From Zingiber officinale (Eukaryota; Streptophyta; Magnoliopsida; Zingiberales; Zingiberaceae), in contig NW_024589883.1 of the NCBI RefSeq assembly GCF_018446385.1, positions 28,249 to 92,248 on the forward strand: a stretch of DNA of 64,000 nt. Direction: 5' to 3'. Shown in pieces: positions 9,215 to 46,466 of this stretch (position 1 is its first letter; every line of letters begins with the position of its first letter). Below the pieces are notes generated by a model, which worked only from the letters and a program-made list of their open reading frames with translations, did no database searches and had not been told where the DNA came from. Made by a program: the position numbers and the translations under genes.

Positions 9215-9500
9215 CACCCCCGATTCCTTGAGCTTGGTAACGTACCCCTAACTCACTTAGCTCTCCCATCCCCCCTCCAATTCCATTAGCTCGGTCCCCC
9301 ACAACTCACTCAGCTCGGTCATTCTCGACTTTCTCAACTCAGTCAAGCTCAACTCCCTCTACTCAGCGACACTCGACTCACTTAGCCAGGTCACGCCCGA
9401 CTCCCTGAGCTCAGTCACGCCCGACTCCCTGAGCTCGGTCACCCCCGACTCACTTAGTTCGGTCACACCTGACTCCCTCAACTTGGTCACATCAGACACC
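9215..9500. repeat. Minisatellite, about 24-bp degenerate unit
   Basis: The unit has the consensus form GACTCCCTGAGCTCGGTCAC plus a few bases and is repeated about ten times with variation in the central CTGAGCTC/CTTAGCTC part. It is much more GC-rich than the surrounding sequence. No reading frame is maintained, so it is unlikely to be coding. Confidence 0.8.
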
Positions 9501-14239: not shown

Positions 14240-14690
14240 AATTGATTAAAAAGACTTTAATCGATTGCCCAATTGATTACCTAACCTTTTGTTTTCTCGC
14301 GAAAAGTCTTAATCGATTAGCCCAATCAATTAACAATGTCTTAATCGATTGCCCAATTGATTACCTACCTTTTTGTTTTCTCGCGAAAAGTCTTAATCGA
14401 TTAGCCCAATCAATTAACAGTGTCTTAATCGATTGTCCAATTGATTACAAACCCTACTGTGCTTCATGAGCTTCTTCTAATTGATTCCCCAATTCACCGT
14501 ACTTCTCACAACAAACAACTCTTAATCTATTAGCAATCGACCTAATCAATCAAGATCTTCTTAATCAATCATCCCAGTTGATTAATATAGCTGAAATTGA
14601 TTGCCCCAATTGATTCTGGCACCTTTGTGAGAAATGCTACTCTAATCGATTACCCAATCGATTAGCCATGTCCCAATCGATTGACTAACC
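14240..14690. repeat. Palindrome array (AATCGATTG type) within solo LTR copy 1
   Basis: Repeated inverted motifs of the type AATCGATTGCCCAATTGATT and AATCGATTAGCCCAATCAAT are spaced roughly 25-60 bases apart. Part of the array (14260-14430) is also a direct tandem duplication of about 92 bases. See the findings on covarying inverted repeats. Confidence 0.75.
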
Positions 14691-15354
14691 CTAATTCACT
14701 TGATTCGAGTCTAGGGTTTTCCTTACACAACATCTAATCAACTGTGACTTGTTGGGTCTTCCTTTAAGTGTCTGATCAACTTTTTGACTCACTTAGAGTT
14801 TTTCTTATACCAAGTGTCTGGTCAACATTTGACCCACTTGGACTTTTTCTTTGCTAACTTCTCGTTGGACTTCTGATCACCAAGTGCACGGTCCATCTTC
14901 ACCCATTTGAATGCCCCTCTTACCTAACCATAGCTCGGGCTTTCCTCTTGTCTGCGTGTTGTCCTGCTTGATTAACTTGAACTTTCGTTTGCTTAATCGT
15001 AGTTAAGACTTTCCTTTGCCAACGTGTGACCCTCCTTGACAACTTGGACTTCCCTTTGCCTAACCGCAATTAGGACTTTCCTTTGCTAATACGCGGTCCT
15101 CCTTGACTCATTTGGATTTTTCTCTATCTAACCGCAGTTAGGGCTTTTCTTTGCCAACCTGCGGTTCTCTTTGATCCACTTGAATTTTCCTTTGCCTAAT
15201 CGTCGAGTTAAAAGTTTGTCTTGCCTAACCTGTAGTTAAGACTTTAACCTTGTCTAACCCTTGAGTTAAGACTTTTTCTTACCTAACATTTAGATAGTAA
15301 TTTATCAGTTAAGTATTCGGTCTTTCATAACCTACTTTACTTCTCTCTTACTTA

Positions 15355-29400: not shown

Positions 29401-32400
29401 TTTATTAGCTCATTCAAGCTCAGTATTCATGATTTATCTCATTTTTCCTTCATTATTCTATTACAGAGTAAACAGGACGTGTTCATGGAATCCTTAATCT
29501 GCAGAATGGACTGTGATTGCAGTAAACTTTTAGTTTGTCAAATAGATGCGGATTGCAGAAAAACCTTGTGCTTTGATTTTGAGGTTATCTACTATTTGTG
29601 TGTTATCTTCTTCATAGATTTTTTTTACCAAGTGATCGAAGAAATTTTTACTGTATGGTGTAGTCAATAGTTTTGCCAAGTTTATATTAGGAACAAATAT
29701 CATAGGGTGGCCTAACCTACTTTAGTACGCGAGACAATATAATAATACTGAATGATATTGTTGAGTTGAAAAGACTTCAGCACTTTACTGATATGAACTG
29801 TTTGATTGTCATAATATAATTTTCCTCCAGCAAACTACTGTATTTGAATACATATGACTTAACACCGCCTATCTATATCTATTCAACTCTTTTGAAATGA
29901 TGTTTTTAGTATTAGTTTGGTTACTCGATAAAAAAAAATACTAATCTCAATAAACAGTAGGACATAGTTTATTGAGGTTTCCAAGAATAGTATGTCACTT
30001 TAGAACTATAGAGTTCATCAAGAGCCATTTTTCTCAGCGTAAAGAAATGATGTAGTTTGAAATTCTGCTATAGATACAATTTCCTTCTTTATTCTGATTG
30101 AAAATAGCTTATTACTTTTTCAATCTACAAGTTCTGGTTCCTAAATAAATATCCAATTATACACACTATTAACTTGTAAAAATCATTTCTGATATCCATA
30201 AATCATCGCATGGATCCTTCTATAGTATAATGGGAATCAATTAATCTAAACAACATGTTCACTTATCACACAAGGTGCAAAATCGTGTCATTTCTTAGTT
30301 AGTTAGGAGTGTAACATTTCTTAGTAGTGTTGTGCTGTAACAATCTGGTTCTGAAATGGCACAATGTTTGAGCAGCAAATGTCGAATGTAATCTGGCATT
30401 TCATGGTGTTTTGAGTTGCTGTGTAAGTAATCATGTCATGGTTTACCAGAGAATGCTGTGATGTTTGCAATGGCAAGTGCTTGTCTTTATCATGTTTCAG
30501 ACCTGTTCTTAAGAAATTCTGATTGATATACTTTTTTTTTCAATTTTTTATTCTATTGTTTAAGATAATGTGGTGCCTTATGAAATCAACACTGTGCAAT
30601 TGTTTGTGTAAAAATTTTTTGCCTCTTCATTTTATCACCATTGTGCTCTTTTAAAAGTCTTGGTTGTTATTACATAGCAATTCCTTCTTTGTATTTCTTA
30701 AAACAGAGTGTGACCTAATGAAACCAGTTTTCATCTAGTGTTTCTAACTTTCTATTGAATTTGTTGCCTCTTAATTTTCTTAGTATTGTGCTTTCTAAGT
30801 CTTGATTGTTTGTAGATCAGGTTCAACAACAAGCTCAAGATGTTTCACAATATGCTGCATTTGATGTATATAGAAGTGATTTCCCAAACACATTTACTTC
30901 AGGAAAATCTCCATTTCCAGCTTTAGATGCATTTGTGGAATATATAGCATCATCAGGGAATGCTTTAGGTATTCCTTTAGATACTCTTATGTAATGAGCC
31001 TCCTGAATTTTTTGTATTTATGTTTTTGGGGCCCTTGGATTTGGCTGCTGGTATATGTTGCTACCTCACATACAGTTCGACATTTGGTATAGGTATTTAT
31101 GGTTTCATGATTACATAAATCTGGTATTGACTTGATGATTTTTTTTGTTCCAGGAAAAATTCGAAGTTGGTATTGGTTTTCATCACACGGTCTAATTGTT
31201 TACAGTATGTTAAGAAGCAGATATTGTGAGAGGATTGGTAGAGAACATAAAAGCAATCATGGTAACTTGTTTGTTGACCATTGCTCTAGAATCTTTCCTT
31301 GTGTACAACGTTTGCTCAACTTGCTGTGGTTTTGTTGTTTTCTGTTAATAGTTGATTCAAATCTATTCTATCAAATGGTCTTCTCAAGAATTAGAATCAT
31401 TGCGGTATAAATATTCTGAAGTGTCATTTTTGGCTTCTAATACATTATTTTGAAGTCTGTATCATGGTTTAAGGTCTCATAGTCAAACTTGTATCATGGT
31501 TTAAGGTCTCATAGTCAAACTTGGGACTGGACTGGTTTTGGTAGTTGATGGTCTCTTTTTCTGTAACGACCCGCCTTCTACTGACTAGGCTGTGAGGCCG
31601 ATCGCTACATTATGCTGTGCTAAATTACTATTGCGGAAATCTGGATTGATTAAAATTTTACTAAACTGATTACTGCAAAATCTGAACTTAATATTCTAGG
31701 TGTACCTAGGAGTTGTACACATGCTAGGGAAGATAATCTATACCTCTCGGATATCCTGCTAGCTGTAATCAGGCATTTCAATCGATCCATGAATCGATTG
31801 GGCTGTCGGATCGATCCAGTGATCGATCCAGCTTGATACCGGCACGGAGAGAAACTCTGGATCGGTCGGCTGACCGATCCACAAGCCATCTCGCTTCTGT
31901 ATGCGGCTGGATCGGTCTACCGACCGATCCAGGAGTACACTGATCGGTCGGTAGACCGATCCAGTGGCTCACTGATCGGTCGGCTGACCGATCAGTGAGC
32001 TTTGTACTTCTCTGTTCGCATCTGGATCGGTCGGCTGACCGATCCATAACAGACGCTAACTCTCTGTTCGCGACTGGATCGGTCAGCTGACCGATCCAGT
32101 GGCACAACCCAACTCTGATCAATCTGGGTTTCTGATTTCGAACCAGAACCCCTGATTTCAGCACTATTTCGTGCCTCAATCACATTACATGTTCTAAGAT
32201 GGCTAGGAAACACTCTAACAACCACAACTAACATTCTAACATCATAAAGAACAATGTTCTAAGCATAATAGAGTGCATGGTTAACTAATTCATAGCGATC
32301 AACATACTAAAGTGCAAATTGCTAAAATACTAAAAAGTACTAATGTTTAAACAAAGCTTGCTAGAGTTCCCTAAGATCTTCTTTCCAAGTTCCTGCCCAC

Positions 32401-35400
32401 ACACATCTTCGTAGCATTGTCCTCCAGCCTCCGCTAGTCCATCTTTCCTTTACCTTTATCTGCAGTATAAGGAAAAGAAAGTATCTATAAGCTTTCGCTT
32501 AGTAAGAAACCATCTACCTCACTAAAACATGCATTCGATGCAATATGCTTTTAAAACATGCTGTTTGAAAGTGCACTGATTAGACTGAAACATGGCATGT
32601 TATCATACATAGAAATCAAAGCTAGTCATGGCATACTATCATCTAAACATGTGTAATAAAAGCTGAACATGAAGACTAAAGCATAGCATACAAAGCTAAC
32701 CATAACTATCATGTGTAACAACAAGGAAAACTGAGCTGAACATGAATTAAACTAGTCTGGAACTGAATTCAAACTCAACTAACATAACTGATCTTTGTGA
32801 GTTTTGAAAAACTATAATATAATAGATTAAAATACATAATCATACTGCTAATGGGCCCGACAACTGTACATGCTATGCGCGCATCCTCAATTAAACCCGG
32901 GGTTGCAAATCCCGAATTTAGCAAGGTTTACTAGGTTATTTAAAACTAGGGACCGACTATGGGAGTCCAGCCCAATGGATATCTAATCCTGTCTGCACTA
33001 TAAAATAAAATAAAATCTGCAATTAATCGCTTCTATGCTTCGAATTCAAGAAGAACAAAGGTCCGAAACTGTACCGACCCGACCCTCTTGGCCCATTTAA
33101 ACTAAACTATTTAAATGCTTATAGCTATTAAAATGCCTAAGTTGCATTTTTCTGTGCTAAATAATTTAATCGAACACTTAGTATGCACTAATTCGCATCC
33201 TTGTGCCGAAAGTCTACATATAACTAAACTAAAACATGGAATTCACACGGAAGCTACTTATACTGCAGGTGAGGGGTTTCTTACCTCGTATGCTAATTTC
33301 CTTACAATTCTATTCGCTAGAATTCCGGTGGAGACGATCCTTTCGACAATCTCCCCGCTCCAACGCGTTCTTCTCGCGGAGGGGAACGTTCTTGTGCTGG
33401 AATCGCTGCCGGAAGGTGCTCTTAGGGCCCTAGGGAGAGAACCCTAGGGTTGGCGCCGAGAGGAAGAAGGAGAGGGGGCGGCGTGTAAGGTGAGGTCTCG
33501 GTGGAGAATTCCCGAACCAAAGAAATAAACCAAACCCACTCAAGTTTTCTATTTATTTTAAGTGGGTATTTCGGCCAATTTTAAACTTAAATATAAATGT
33601 TTCCCTTTCCTTTCAGCACGGCCCTGCTGGGTTCAACTGGTTACTAGAATTACCCGTAAACCATAGGTCTCGGGTTCAATTCCCGTTTAGGCCGTTTTCG
33701 TTTTCTATTTGTTTTTGCTACTTCCGCTACTCTAAAAAATTATGTAAAAATATCCTAAGATTCCAGAAAAATAATAGAATATTTCTAAAATAGTTTTGAG
33801 AATTTTCGGGCGTTACATTTTCCGTCAGCTTGGGCTCCTCTTCTCTAGAAAGCTATGTCGGCCTTCCAACTTGCGAAGTTCAATATCCTAAGATGTAATA
33901 TAGATTAGAGCTTGGACCGGCTTACCGACACGATCCAAGATAGTCATCGGAAGAAGTGGAAGAAGAAGAAGAAAATGCAAAGAAGAGGAAGAAGAGAGCT
34001 TATTGGAGAAGAGTTGTCTCTGTTTATGAGAATAAGAATACCATACCTCTGACTTACTTCCCTTGGTGAGCGGCATCTCCTCGTTAGACATTTCACGCCC
34101 TTTTATTTTTTCCCATGTGAATTGGTGAAAATGAGGCCTCTGACAATCCGTTATCGTTCCTCCACACATTGATCGCCATGTATTGAGAGGAAGACATCAA
34201 GAGAATCAATTCTGACATCCACTACTTGTTTCTCCATTCACTGATCATCACGTATGGAGAGGAAGGAATCTAGGGAACCAACTCTAATTTCCATTACTTC
34301 TCCATTCACCGATCGCCACGTATGGAGAAGAAGGAAGCAAGGAAACCAACTCTGACATCCATTACTTGTTTCTCCATTCACTGATCACGGAGAGGAAGGA
34401 ATCAAGGGAACCAACTCTTACATCCACTACTTGTTCTCCATTCACTGTTTGCCACATACTCTTAAACAGAAACTTCGGATCTTTTGATGCTCGGTGAAAG
34501 TTATACTTGATGCTCAGTAGAAGATAGCTATGTTAATAGAATTTAGCCATATTGCTCGGAAGAACTTAATCATATTACTCAGCGGAACTTATCCATGCTG
34601 CTCGAAAGAACTTATTCATGTTGCTCAGAAGAACTTAGTCATATTGCTCGAAAGAAGTTAGTCGTATGGCTCGGCAGAACTTAGTCGTATTGCTCAGTGG
34701 AACATGCCGTATTGCTTGGAAGAACTGAGCCATATTGCGCGATAGAAAACTTAGCCATATTGCTCGGTGGAACTTAGCCATATTGTTCGATGGAACTTAG
34801 CCATATTGCTCGGAAGAACTTAGAAATATTACTCGGCATATAATCTGGATCCCATAAGATGTTTCTCCTTCAAGTTGGGCAATGGCGGAGGCAAGGGGAT
34901 GCGAGGGTGTGCGGAAGCACCCCCTTGCTTCTAGAAAAAAAAATAAAGGGTACAATTGTGATTTTTCAAATTTATTGGATTTTTTCAAAAAAGTGCCACT
35001 AAAAAAACCACAGCCGAACCTTCCCATGAATCATCCCTTTTTCCAGCCATGATCCACGATCTCTTCAAACCAAAAACCCTAATCTCTAAGAGATCTCATC
35101 ATTGCTCCCTTAAACCGTTGACCTCATCTATGTCGCCTCTTCACTTTGTCAACACCACTATTGTTCCGTCAACGCCACTGCTATTCTGTCAACGCCGCTA
35201 CTGCTGTGCTCCGTCGTTGATCCTCCACTACAAGCAAAATCCCTTCAATTTAGGTGAATCTGGTTCCTTATTTCATTTGATTCCTAATTTCGTGATTTAT
35301 ACTTGGTAGTACTATAACTTCTATGTTGATTGCATAAATCAATAATTTTGATAAATTGACATAGGTTATGGGGAAATTTTTAAAACAAAGTGTTTAGTCT

Positions 35401-38400
35401 TCTAAGAGTTCTAATGTAGAAAATAGTAAGAGAAAACATTCTTACGTTGAATTCAACCCGGAAGATGTTGTTAGTGATCCAAGGCTACACAAACCAATTA
35501 ATGAATTTGATGTTTCTATTAGAGATCATATTCGAAAGGGCAACCCAGTGCACTAAGCTCCCGTTATGCGGGGTCCCGGGGAAGGATCCATTGTACGCAG
35601 CCTTACCTTACTTTTTGCAAGAAGCTATTTATAGGATTCGAACCCGTGACCTTTTGGTCACAAAGCAATAACTTTACCGTTGCGCCAAGGCTTCCTTTCA
35701 GAGATCATATTTGAAGAGAATATTTAATTAGAGGACCTTGTCAACCATTTGGCCATAGTTATCCCTAAAGATAATTTGGTAAAGAGCATAGAAGTTTTCA
35801 AATTGCTTGGTTTAAAAAATTTTCATGGTTAGAGTACAACATATCAAAAGATGCAGTTTTTTGTTTTTGGTGCTATTTCTTTAAAAATTCTCATAGAGGA
35901 TGTCGAGTTGGAGATTAGGCATTTACTAATTCAGGGATGAATAATTGGAGAAAAGCAATGGAAGTATTTAACACATGTTGGTGGTGTAGCTAGTGCTCAC
36001 AATGATGCAAGGACATAACTTGAGGCTTTTCAAAATCAATGACAAAGCGTGTCACATTTGCTACAAGCACAAGGGCATGGAATGGAGATTGTATATCGCA
36101 CTCGATTAACGACAACTTTGGATGTTACAAGCTTTCATTTGAAACAAGGTTTGCCTTTCTATAGACTTGACGAGTCATTGAGTTCCTCAAATAGAGGTAA
36201 TTTTTTTTTTTTGAATTGATTGAGTGGTATACCCAAATAAATGAAGAGGTTGCCAAGACAATGAATGAGTTTGCCCCTGTAAACAATCAAATGAAGTCTC
36301 CAATAGTTCAAAAAGATTTAACACGGGCTTGTGCTGCTGAAGTCACAAATGTCATTCTTAATGATATAAAAGACAATATATTTTCTCTTATGGTTAATGA
36401 GTATCGAGACATTTCAGTCAAAGAGCAAATGAGAGTTATTTTAAGATACGTAAACAAACATGGATGTGTTATTGAAAGATTTCTTGCTATTGTGCGTGTC
36501 TGATGTTGGTGCAACCTTAGGTCAAGGTTGACCTGGTTGCCCCGACTCGAGTTGACTTGACTCGAGTTGTATTTTGATGTTTGACTTGGGAAGATTGTTG
36601 ATGCAACTTTAGGTCAAGATTGACCTAGTTGAGTTGCATGTTGATGTTTGACACTCGTGAGAGAGTTCTATTCTTGATATGGGACAAGAATAGATGTTTG
36701 GGAGATTATTGGTGCAACCGTAGGTCAAGGTTGACCTGGTTGACCTGATTCGGGAAAAAGTCCAAGTATGGAGACTTGGCAACGGAAAAGTCCAAGCAGG
36801 GAGCTTGGCACTAAAAAAGTCCAAGTATGGAGACTTGGAACTGGAAAAGTCCAAGCAGGAGCTTGGCGCGAAAAGTCCAAGTATGGAGACTTGGCAGGGA
36901 AAAGTCCAAGTATGGAGACTTGCATGGAAAAGTCCAAGTATGGAGACTTGGCGGAGAAATCAAGCAGGGAGCTTGGCGCGAGGAAAAGTCCTAACTGGAT
37001 GTTAGGCGGTGTGGAAAGTCCCAGTGAGTAAACCGAGTGAGTGAGTGAAGCTAGGTGAAGGAGAAAGTCTAGCTGGGATGTTAGGCGGTGTGGAAAGTCC
37101 CGTGAGTGAAGCCGAGCGGTGGAAAAATCTAACTGGGATGTTAGGCGGTTGGAAAGTCTGGTGAGTGAAACCAGGCGAGGAAAATCTAGATGGATCGGGA
37201 TGATCGGACTTCGTGTTGGAAAATCCGGATGGATCGGGGATGATCGGACTTCGGTGTTGGAAAGTCCAAGTAGGTCGAAAGGACTGGACACTTGGGAGTG
37301 CGTCACGGGAGTGACCGGATGCTAAGCGTGATGAACCAATAGGTCAGGTTGACCGGATATTGGTTTGAAGTCTTGGGACTTGGTTTGGGCAAAATTGCTA
37401 CGGATCGGTCACCGACCGATCCGATGTCTGTTGCTCGATCGGTCGGTGCCGATCGCATCTCGGCTCTTTCGATTCTTGATCGGTGACCGTCGGCCAACAG
37501 GCGAAAGAAAGCGGTGATCGGTCCGCAGGCCGTCGAGGTCTGACGGTGCGGGACCGATCGAGACGATGTCGCGAGCACGGCGGAGTTGGGATCGATGCGT
37601 GGACCGATCCGGTATCTGATCGGTCCACCGATCGATCGCGATGAGGCTCGTGCGGCGGTCGATCGGGGGACCGATCGGCCAGTCTGATCGGTCCGTGACC
37701 GATCGAGTTCTAGCGACGCGGCTAGTTTCTTCATTGTTTCTCCTTCGCGGTATAAAAGGGTGAGGGCTTCTACAGGCGAACTCTTCTTTTCTTCTTGAGC
37801 TTCGCTCTTCACTACTGAGCGGCTGGTGTGCTCTTGAGCTTTCCTGAGTATTCTTTGAAGCTCTGCGTGAGTTTCTTGCTGGTGTTCTAGCTGGAGAAGC
37901 TGCTGCTTCATCAAGGTTCCAGTCGACAACAAGAGGCAAGCAAGTGTTTTACAATTTCTATTGTTCTTGTTTGTTGTCTCTATTGTTGTACTCCTTTGTT
38001 TGCTGTTGCAAAAGATTGTGGTGAGGTTTCTCCACCCACAAGGAGTATATTATTAGCCGGTTCTCCGGGGACTCATCCACCGACGGATTGAGAGGCTTCG
38101 TCCACCTTACGGACACGCCGAGGAGTAGGAGTATCATCTCCGAACCTCGTTACATCGACGCGTTGAGGTTTGATCTTCTTGTTTTCGTTTCCTTGTTTGT
38201 TTTTCCGCTGCGCTAACGAATTGTAGGAAGAAACGCGATCGATTTGGGGTCGGCTATTCACACCCCCCCTCTCTAGCCGTACGAAGGATCCTAACATCTG
38301 ACACTTCTGTTATTCCTTTGATGAAGGCTATTGATGAATTGTTTGCAAAACATAAGTTGTCATTATCAAGATTGAGAGGTCAAGGATACGACGGGGCTTC

Positions 38401-44259: not shown

Positions 44260-44849
44260 GGCAAATGGAAATTTTTACTTTACATGTTAAATTATTGATA
44301 CTTCATTACTCATAAAGAATTAGTGACATGGATCTTGTTAGGGTCGGTTTGTGTTAGAGAAGAGGCGGCGGCGGCGACCCGGGGGTGGGGGGGGGGGTGA
44401 ATAGCTCACCGCGCTTGTTGTCTTGCTTCGTGATGATTTGCAGTGGAATAAAACTTGAAGCAATCTCTCCAATGCCAATACTAGGGATTTACTTGGTATC
44501 CACCTCAAGAAGAGGTGACTAATCCAAGGATCCACATACAACATGCTCTCCACTATCAAAAACACTCCTTCTCGGTAACTACCGAAGGTGGAGAAACCTC
44601 GTACAACACTCACACAACAAATACAACACACACAAGATGAAAAATACAAGAATACAAATACAAACTCTTTTTTTCTTGCTCACTTGTTGTTTGTTGATGC
44701 CTCTTGAACCTTGGAAGTGCACCTGCACTTGTCTCCAAGAGCTTCCAAGAACTGGCGGTGAATGTCGTGGAAGAATGCGTGAAGATCGGGAAGAAGGATT
44801 ACAACGTTTGAATGCTTCGCCGCCTTTATATCTGCGCTTCTAGGGCTTC

Positions 44850-45266
44850 CAATCAATTGGGGCTCCTTCCAATCGATTGCCATGTCAGATCCCAGCAATC
44901 TCGGCCGTCCAAAACCTGTATCCTGTACAACGGTCGTATCCCAATCGATTGATTAATCGATTGGTGAGACTTGAATCGATCGGTCGATCGATTCAGAGTG
45001 CCTCTGTGCTCTTGCTGGAAAAGCCTGAATCGATCGACCGATCGATTCAGCATTTATCGTGATGCCGCAATTTCCAGCCCCCTAATCGATCGGCCGATCG
45101 TTTAGCGGTGCCCAATCGATCGGCTGATCGATTGGGGAAGCTTTTGTGCTTGTGACAATTGCTCCCAATCGATCGATCGATCGATTGGGCTGCTGCTTAT
45201 CACAGCACTCTCCCAATCGATCGACCGATCGATGGGGCTTAGGTCAATCGATCAGTTGATCGATTG
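44850..45266. repeat. Palindrome array (AATCGATCG...CGATCGATT) in solo LTR copy 3
   Basis: About nine inverted repeats of 20-27 bases such as TGAATCGATCG/CGATCGATTCA, CCCAATCGATC/GATCGATTGGG and CAATCGATCA/TGATCGATTG, spaced about 30-50 bases. The outermost arm bases change in matched pairs between units. Confidence 0.88.
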
Positions 45267-45309
45267 TCCCAACCTTGACTTGCCTAAACTCAAGTCCAAG
45301 GTTCCCAAA

Positions 45310-45642
45310 CCCAACATCTAGTCAACTGTGACCTGTTGGGACTCCTTTTGCCTAGCATCTAGTCAACCTTGACCTGTTAGGACTTCTTCACCCAGTGTCT
45401 GGTCAACCCTTTGACCCACTTGGACTTTTCTCCTTGTGCCAAGTGTCCGGTCAACCTTGACCCACTTGGACTTACTGTCTTGTGCCAAGTGTCCGGTCCT
45501 CCATGACCCACTTGGATTTCCTTCCACCAGATGTCCGTCATCCTTGACCCATCTGGATTTCCTTGTGCCAAGTATCCGGTCAACCCTTTAACCTACTCGG
45601 ACTTTCCAACACCAGGTGTCTAATCAATCTTAACCCACCTGG
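45310..45642. repeat. Two-tier hairpin array in solo LTR copy 3
   Basis: Units have a 7-bp outer stem, a 2-3-base bulge and an inner GGTCAA/TTGACC stem. Outer stems are CCCAACA/TGTTGGG (45310, 45334), CCTAGCA/TGTTAGG (45351, 45375, one G-T), CCAAGTG/CACTTGG (45439, 45463 and again 45485, 45509), CCAGATG/CATCTGG (45527, 45550) and CCAGGTG/CACCTGG (45612, 45636). Arm spacing is 24 bases in five of these six. Confidence 0.88.
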
Positions 45643-46466
45643 ATTTCCACGTGCCTGACTTCACTCACCAGGTATTTCCACTGCCCGACTTCACTCACCG
45701 GAACTTTCACCTGCCTAGCTTCACTCACTAGGACTTTCACCTAGCTTTACTCACTAGGATTTCCCAAGTGCCTAGCTTCACTCACTAGGTCTTTCACCTG
45801 ACTTCACTCACCAGGATTTCCAACTGCCTAGCTTCACTCACTAGGACTTTCCATCTGCTCGATTTCACTCATCAAGATTTTCACAACTGCCTAGTTTCAC
45901 TCACTAGGATTTTTACAACTGTTTAGCTTCACTCACTAGGTCTTTTATCTAGCTTTACTCACCAGGATTTTCAGTCCGTCTGGCTTCACTCACGAGGACT
46001 CCCCAGTCAAGTATCCGGTCAATCTTGCCCTACTTGACTCTTCTTCACATCTAACTGATCAATCCTTGACCAGGGGGGAATTGTATCAACAATTTTCCCA
46101 AACAGACAATTGCATTTGCAATCTCCATGTATTGTCAAACATCAAAACTCAAATACTAAGACTTAAGCTTAAGCCAACTCATGTTTAGTTAATTTGGTCA
46201 ACCTGACCCAGGGGATATTGCACCAACATATCCTAGTATAAATTTTTTATGCTTATAAGTACGTTTGATCAAATATATATATAGTCTTATTTGTTTCTAA
46301 AAAAACCTAATCTTCCATTCATCCTCCTTTATTTTTGTCTCGACAAATTTTTTTCATCGTTGTTCACATTGACATTTCATCAAACAACTATCAGTTAAAA
46401 AATAAAACCATCCTAAAACACATAAAATTCACATCTTTAATTTGAAATTAAAAACTTACTTTACCA

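Follow-up and report, generated by a model that had tools for sequence, protein, structure and literature searches.

An LTR in the ginger (Zingiber officinale) genome carries an array of palindromic units whose outer arms differ in sequence from unit to unit and between lineages, and yet are mostly complementary within each unit. The array (array B, 45310..45642) was found in a stretch of 64,000 nucleotides, referred to below as the window, and is almost certainly part of a Sirevirus-type (Ty1-copia) LTR. It is most likely an array of promoter modules whose symmetry is weakly maintained. As an overall explanation we favour, by a small measure, modules that act as promoter DNA, with a W-box core and a weakly favoured dyad symmetry.

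A preliminary description of the window had reported six two-tier hairpins in array B, each with a 7-bp outer stem around an inner GTCAA/TTGAC stem. All six outer stems were verified: slot A at 45310..45340 (CCCAACA/TGTTGGG), slot B at 45351..45381 (CCTAGCA/TGTTAGG, with one G-T pair), two units with the arms CCAAGTG/CACTTGG at 45439..45469 and 45485..45515, one with CCAGATG/CATCTGG at 45527..45556, and one with CCAGGTG/CACCTGG at 45612..45642. Outer arms are 24 bases apart in five of the six, as had been stated, and 23 apart in the 45527 unit. The seventh, near-miss unit of that description is slot C, at 45391..45423. Two further units had been overlooked, one at 45568..45600 with a single mismatch (CCAAGTA/TACTCGG) and an outlying perfect unit of the array B design at 46007..46037 (TCAAGTA/TACTTGA). 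All of these units are assigned to the minus strand. The inner stem is less uniform than described. It is intact in slot B, in slot C and in the 45439 unit, which has an intact GGTCAACCTTGACC core, shortened in the units at 45310, 45485 and 45527, and decayed almost to the point of loss at 45612. Among 24 members of the window's LTR family, the most frequent form of slot B is CCTAGCA/TGCTGGG (8/24), with one non-Watson-Crick pair, and that of slot C is CCAAGTG/CACTTGG (16/24); the 45568 slot reads CCAAGTA/TACTTGG in 14/24. Altogether 45310-45642 contains seven perfect 7-bp stems with loops of 14-20 bases, five inside units and two between neighbouring units, whereas 500 dinucleotide shuffles contain 0.19 on average and never more than 4. 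The recurrence of the unit at 14810-14841 was also confirmed (CCAAGTG/CACTTGG), in another LTR family of the window. In that family (14257-15330), an 84-base repeat of TCGATT-type palindromes is followed by two-tier units and a 68-base repeat with CCTAACCGCAGTTAGG.

The LTR that contains array B runs from approximately 44336 to 46228 on the minus strand and has no internal region. Of 9,345 candidate copies in the genome, 40 were scored, and the edges of the window LTR are the ones it has in common with copies that show a PBS or a polypurine tract at their ends. In the sense direction it begins with TGTTGGTGCAATATCC at 46228 and ends with CTAACA at 44336. Long matches to it, the window itself excluded, are 87-90% identical. 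In a copy on contig C17, one LTR is followed by CTAACAAGTGGTATCAGAG, the PBS junction, and the other is preceded by a purine tract; these two LTRs are 87.7% identical. A candidate TATA box (TATAAA, 44825..44830, minus strand) is present in the window LTR, and the motif is also found in both LTRs of the C17 copy. A polyC stretch in CTATTCACCCCCC context, the Sirevirus integrase signal, lies at 44385..44397 on the minus strand. The sense order is therefore LTR start, outlying unit, array C, array B, array A, TATA box, polyC and LTR end. As arrays A, B and C are all upstream of the TATA box, they are located in U3, which enters the retroelement transcript solely via the 3′ LTR. Because the LTR reads on the minus strand, the units as written in the preliminary description and above are antisense, and the G-T pair at 45351, although present on the plus strand, is an A-C mismatch on the sense strand. 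The designation as a solo LTR holds in part: neither a PBS nor a polypurine tract flanks the window LTR, but the flanking 5-mers, GGATA and AGATC, do not match, so that the LTR is without a target-site duplication.

Sirevirus identity is read from three sequence signals, all of them hallmarks of the group according to PMC2829016: an LTR/PBS junction of CA/ATTGG (or AGTGG) followed by TATCAGAGC, several AGGGGGAG tracts upstream of the 3′ LTR with AT/TG after the last one, and a polyC-rich signal roughly 21 bp from the 3′ end of the LTR. The junction CTAACA-AGTGG-TATCAGAGT was found in the C17 copy and in L003, and similar forms occur in L004, L010 and further loci that bear arrays. AGGGGGAGATTG is present at the LTR start in the window-family copies L005, L076, L078 and L086, and additional upstream AGGGGGAG tracts occur in L076 and L086; the C17 copy also has upstream tracts, the last of them altered. 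Many copies carry CTATTCACCCCCC near the LTR end, and the window LTR has a longer, interrupted stretch farther from the end. Pfam searches of L010, a copy of the window family, placed a copia-type gag match near its PBS, at an E value of 6e-5 that falls short of the curated cut-off. Five related loci gave zinc knuckles, and the locus L055 gave integrase-type domains. No reverse transcriptase was recovered, and eight pieces of the broken C17 element gave just two weak, unrelated Pfam matches. Three other array-bearing elements (L051, L071 and L074) have LTR copies of one core only about 5.1-5.5 kb apart and are possibly non-autonomous; L051 and L074 contain a gag-like ORF with a zinc knuckle.

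Although the preliminary description could name no element of such design, Sirevirus LTRs are already known to carry palindromic arrays upstream of the TATA box, described by Bousios et al. 2010 as repeated motif (RM) arrays (PMC2829016). RM arrays share with those described here a position in the first half of the LTR, before the TATA box, and a build of numerous palindromic units; from element to element their sequence differs but their symmetry does not. In the published arrays each element has one short palindrome, which in all except Tnd-1 has a CGG-CCG core, and the arrays mostly mark CpG islands (PMC2829016). The units of array B, in contrast, are about 31 bases long and two-tier, with a one-sided 3-base bulge, a core made of a TTGACC pair, and arms that vary by unit, and three unlike palindromic arrays are found within the one LTR. 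Array A (44944..45266, minus strand) is made up of TCGATCGA-type palindromes such as AATCGATCGGTCGATCGATT, and resembles the Tnd-1 motif ACAATCGATTGT (PMC2829016). Array C (45653..45993, minus strand) consists of short palindromes about a TTCACTCA loop, with the arms CCTAG/CTAGG and CCTGG/CCAGG and variants of these. RM arrays have at least eight palindromic units upstream of the TATA box; here there are nine two-tier units, which differ in motif, together with arrays A and C. The palindromes of arrays B and C are not built on a CGG-CCG core, and those of array A are so in part, as judged by eye. Neither array B nor array C forms a CpG island (CpG observed/expected 0.26 and 0.38), whereas array A is CpG-rich (1.42, measured on 44940-45270). 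Palindromes of maize Sireviruses (2016, Genome Research) are, according to PMC10760457 and PMC5311732, likewise highly variable in sequence and predicted to form strong secondary structures, and they cluster in the LTR's regulatory part; the maize motif CACCGGACNNNGTCCGGTG is a single-tier palindrome, unlike the two-tier units. In the small part of the literature covered, the two-tier unit, mixed arms in one array, and three palindromic arrays per LTR were not found, and the open-licence PMC literature yielded nothing on Sireviruses in Zingiber or on palindromic W-box/WRKY sites in retrotransposon LTRs, though with palindromes left aside two papers matched W-boxes, WRKY and retrotransposon LTR promoters. 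Palindromic arrays in Sirevirus LTRs are known, and what looks to be new is the mixed-arm, two-tier version.

The two-tier core is an inverted pair of TTGACC, which we take to be the W-box bound by WRKY factors. GGTCAA-N(0-6)-TTGACC occurs at 161,256 sites in the 3.09 Gb genome, against 515 for a reversed control pattern. Within the LTR, TTGAC[CT] sites number nine in array B (0.27 in shuffles) and five at the LTR start (0.15 in shuffles), with one in array A and none in array C or downstream of the TATA box; the whole window has 100 (71 in shuffles). Arms were scored for 101 cores in 25 stretches, each taken from around sites listed for the beginning of contig C1. Perfect 7-bp arms at the same offsets (3 bases on one side and 0 on the other) flank 37 of them, 50 adjoin an LTR start (two of these also having arms), and 16 do neither. 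Perfect arm pairs at other offsets (0-5) were found on the same diagonal only, where they continue a longer stem. When the cores were oriented by the spacer instead, 32 of the 101 paired at all seven positions. The window LTR has a second inverted W-box near its start, without outer arms, at 46196-46208 (GGTCAACCTGACC); such arm-less cores are present in many loci, for example L074, and in other families read GGTCAACCTTGACC.

Dyad symmetry about a W-box core might mean that a single protein dimer binds each unit as a rigid site with two equal half-sites, and binding of nuclear factors has been raised for Sirevirus repeats in PMC2829016. However, the arms are 23-26 bases apart and the core gap is 1-5 bases, a variation that argues against one rigid dimer site. 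Moreover, the half-site sequence changes while the symmetry stays, as 13 perfect arm types were found, three of them in a single unit. We consider a rigid dimer site quite unlikely.

Matched changes in the two arms, noted in the preliminary description, are real between units and at the same slot across lineages. The window and 90 loci supplied 247 unit candidates, some of them false, in which 76% of arm positions pair, compared with a mean of 59% (maximum 63%) when the right arms were redealt and 15-32% when they were slid. Counting each arm pair type once gives 60% paired against 48% redealt (maximum 52%). Some related units have partial arms only, for example GCCAACG/CACTTGG, with three of seven positions paired (5 units). 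Exact counts over the genome, both strands included, gave for arm pair 2 C-G 18,435, T-A 1,922, T.G 450 and C.A 1,571, and for arm pair 7 G-C 18,435, A-T 8,775, A.C 398 and G.T 2,599. The corresponding odds ratios, 50 for pair 2 and 156 for pair 7, include lineage linkage, because a single double change that was spread through thousands of copies adds thousands to the count.

Equivalent slots in different families were recognized by eye, from their order and flanks. Slot A has CCCAACA/TGTTGGG in the window family, and ACCAACA/TGTTGGT or ACCAATA/TATTGGT in other families. Across families slot B has CCTAGCA/TGCTAGG or CTTAGCA/TGCTAAG, and slot C has CCAAGTG/CACTTGG or, in L071, CTAAGTG/CACTTAG, of which decayed forms are found in L052 and L072. 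Patterns that permitted mixed states, and whose matches are assumed to represent the same slot, matched 14,505 sites for slot A (7,258 forward and 7,247 reverse) and 7,945 for slot B (3,988 and 3,957). Among the first 100 matches listed of the 14,505, slot A pair 1 was A-T in 96, C-G in 4 and mixed in none, and pair 6 was C-G in 65, T-A in 27, C.A in 5 and T.G in 3. Among the first 100 listed of the 7,945, slot B pair 2 was C-G in 40, T-A in 57, T.G in 3 and C.A in none. In slots A-C the ten variable sites of 42 include four doubly variable pairs (P 0.0024), and in the window-family units at 45439, 45527, 45568, 45612 and 46007 the eight variable sites make up four whole pairs (P 0.012); both values are rough and post hoc, with sites treated as exchangeable and states read by hand.

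The array could in principle have arisen by tandem duplication of a single hairpin together with chance, its pairing not being maintained. Array B is indeed a degenerate tandem repeat (TRF period 46), and copies of a slot within the window family change without covariation. However, the arms match in differing sequences across units and lineages, so whole-unit copying alone is insufficient: copying cannot yield different matched arm pairs, nor does it account for matched states of the same slot in different lineages, and both rough P values count against random placement. This origin therefore seems very improbable.

Within the window's family, changes were scored in 24 copies (the window and 23 others) over nine units. 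The 1,491 cells included 149 one-sided and four two-sided changes, with no covariation beyond chance; two of the four were complementary, and about four two-sided cells are expected by chance at an equal per-side rate. Thus the arms mutate independently in this family, an outcome that the preliminary description had named beforehand as refuting its interpretation. Lack of covariation within the family is as expected of copies decaying after insertion. Putative LTR pairs, defined as same-strand sites 4-8 kb apart with equal state and counted without a chance control, numbered 0 for T.G, 29 for C.A, 12 for A.C, 58 for G.T and 70 for T-A per 100 listed sites of each. Three of the four one-sided states look to have been inherited by active elements, and it follows that pairing is not strictly needed and single mismatches are tolerated. 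That some elements apparently carry a one-sided state in both LTRs suggests stepwise change.

Array C-type modules were also analysed, on 740 TTCACTCA-loop anchors (at most one mismatch), many of them present by chance, from the window and 91 loci. The arms were CCTAG/CTAGG in 85 and CCTGG/CCAGG in 67, with 12 and 7 of the mixed forms, and 55% of positions paired compared with 39% (maximum 41%) after the arms were dealt out anew. This class is likewise matched and varying, so matched variable arms are not special to the two-tier units. Its likeness to array B would suit a mutational process, such as template switching or quasi-palindrome correction during reverse transcription or replication, that copies one arm to the other without selection. 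Watson-Crick pairs make up the matched states found in slots A, B and C, and the preference for one strand is inconsistent (see below), as such a process might produce. Against it, one-sided states seemingly inherited in many elements indicate stepwise change, and no correction was seen in window-family copies, although its absence there would be expected if the process required reverse transcription. We regard arm copying as unlikely.

The preliminary description had taken the matched changes as a signature of maintained pairing, with an RNA structure as one possible role. The units would then be hairpins in the sense transcript, in the U3 copy at its 3′ end, acting as a source of small RNAs or in packaging, with pairing selected in RNA. 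The sense strand of array B folds better than its shuffles (z -3.69, with 0 of 100 shuffles equally good), single units have predicted energies of -7.1 to -14.4 kcal/mol on this strand, and the maize Sirevirus palindromes are described as small-RNA hotspots in PMC10760457 and PMC5311732. The antisense strand, however, folds equally well (z -3.88), and since an array-free stretch of the window LTR also reaches z -2.41, whole-array folding is weak evidence. When the array is folded in silico as a whole, some arms are predicted to pair with sequence beyond the unit they belong to, and no Rfam family matched 44300-46300 at the gathering score. If selection acted on the sense RNA, a sense G-U pair should be the favoured intermediate. 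This is true at pair 2, where C.A exceeds T.G (1,571 to 450), but fails at pair 7, where G.T exceeds A.C (2,599 to 398) and the wobble falls on the antisense strand. The sense-RNA reading of the wobble states was therefore rejected. With strands that fold about equally, one-sided states carried by active elements, and a commoner one-sided state that switches wobble strand between pairs, the matched changes do not establish selection for RNA pairing, and RNA hairpins are a doubtful explanation.

In the promoter-module reading that we prefer, the TTGACC pair and its location before the TATA box stay constant, and it is the arms that vary, mostly without losing symmetry. The units would be upstream promoter modules acting as DNA, and their TTGACC pairs, as W-boxes, would bind host WRKY factors. 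In active elements the dyad symmetry of the outer arms would be weakly favoured and, after one-sided changes, restored stepwise; in dead copies drift would erase it. Symmetry may act as duplex DNA, as an extruded hairpin, or within the 3′ LTR copy of the transcript. As a mechanism, modules acting as DNA with weakly favoured arm symmetry are a serious possibility suggested by sequence patterns, though we would stop short of calling it probable. More speculatively, the selected trait might be arm complementarity itself, and not arm sequence, in at least two U3 module classes of ginger Sireviruses. The arms would then drift via one-mismatch intermediates to new matched pairs around a constant W-box core, and the promoter would keep hairpin-capable units of changing sequence that may slow sequence-based silencing.

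Sirevirus LTR palindromes have been linked earlier to silencing and promoter function, and the array described here lets one ask what keeps the arms matched. With more than 160,000 cores, several matched-arm lineages, and intermediates that can be dated by LTR pairs, counts of this kind can separate selection on DNA symmetry, selection on RNA pairing, and a copying mechanism.

Other repeats were observed in the window. An LTR-like stretch on the minus strand at 36700-37300 contains the short palindromic modules CCAAGTCTCCATACTTGG, CCAAGCTCCCTGCTTGG and CCTAACATCCAGTTAGG with similar ACTTTTCC spacers. At 31910-31993 a 32-base repeat beginning with GATCGGTCGGCAGACCGATCC resembles the CGG-CCG Sirevirus motif CGGTCAGACCG given in PMC2829016. 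A 23-base unit, AGAACTTAGCCATATTGCTCGGA, is present in 13 copies at 34538-34836, and a 24/72-base array of ACACCCGACTCCCTGAGCTCGGTC lies at 9277-9491.
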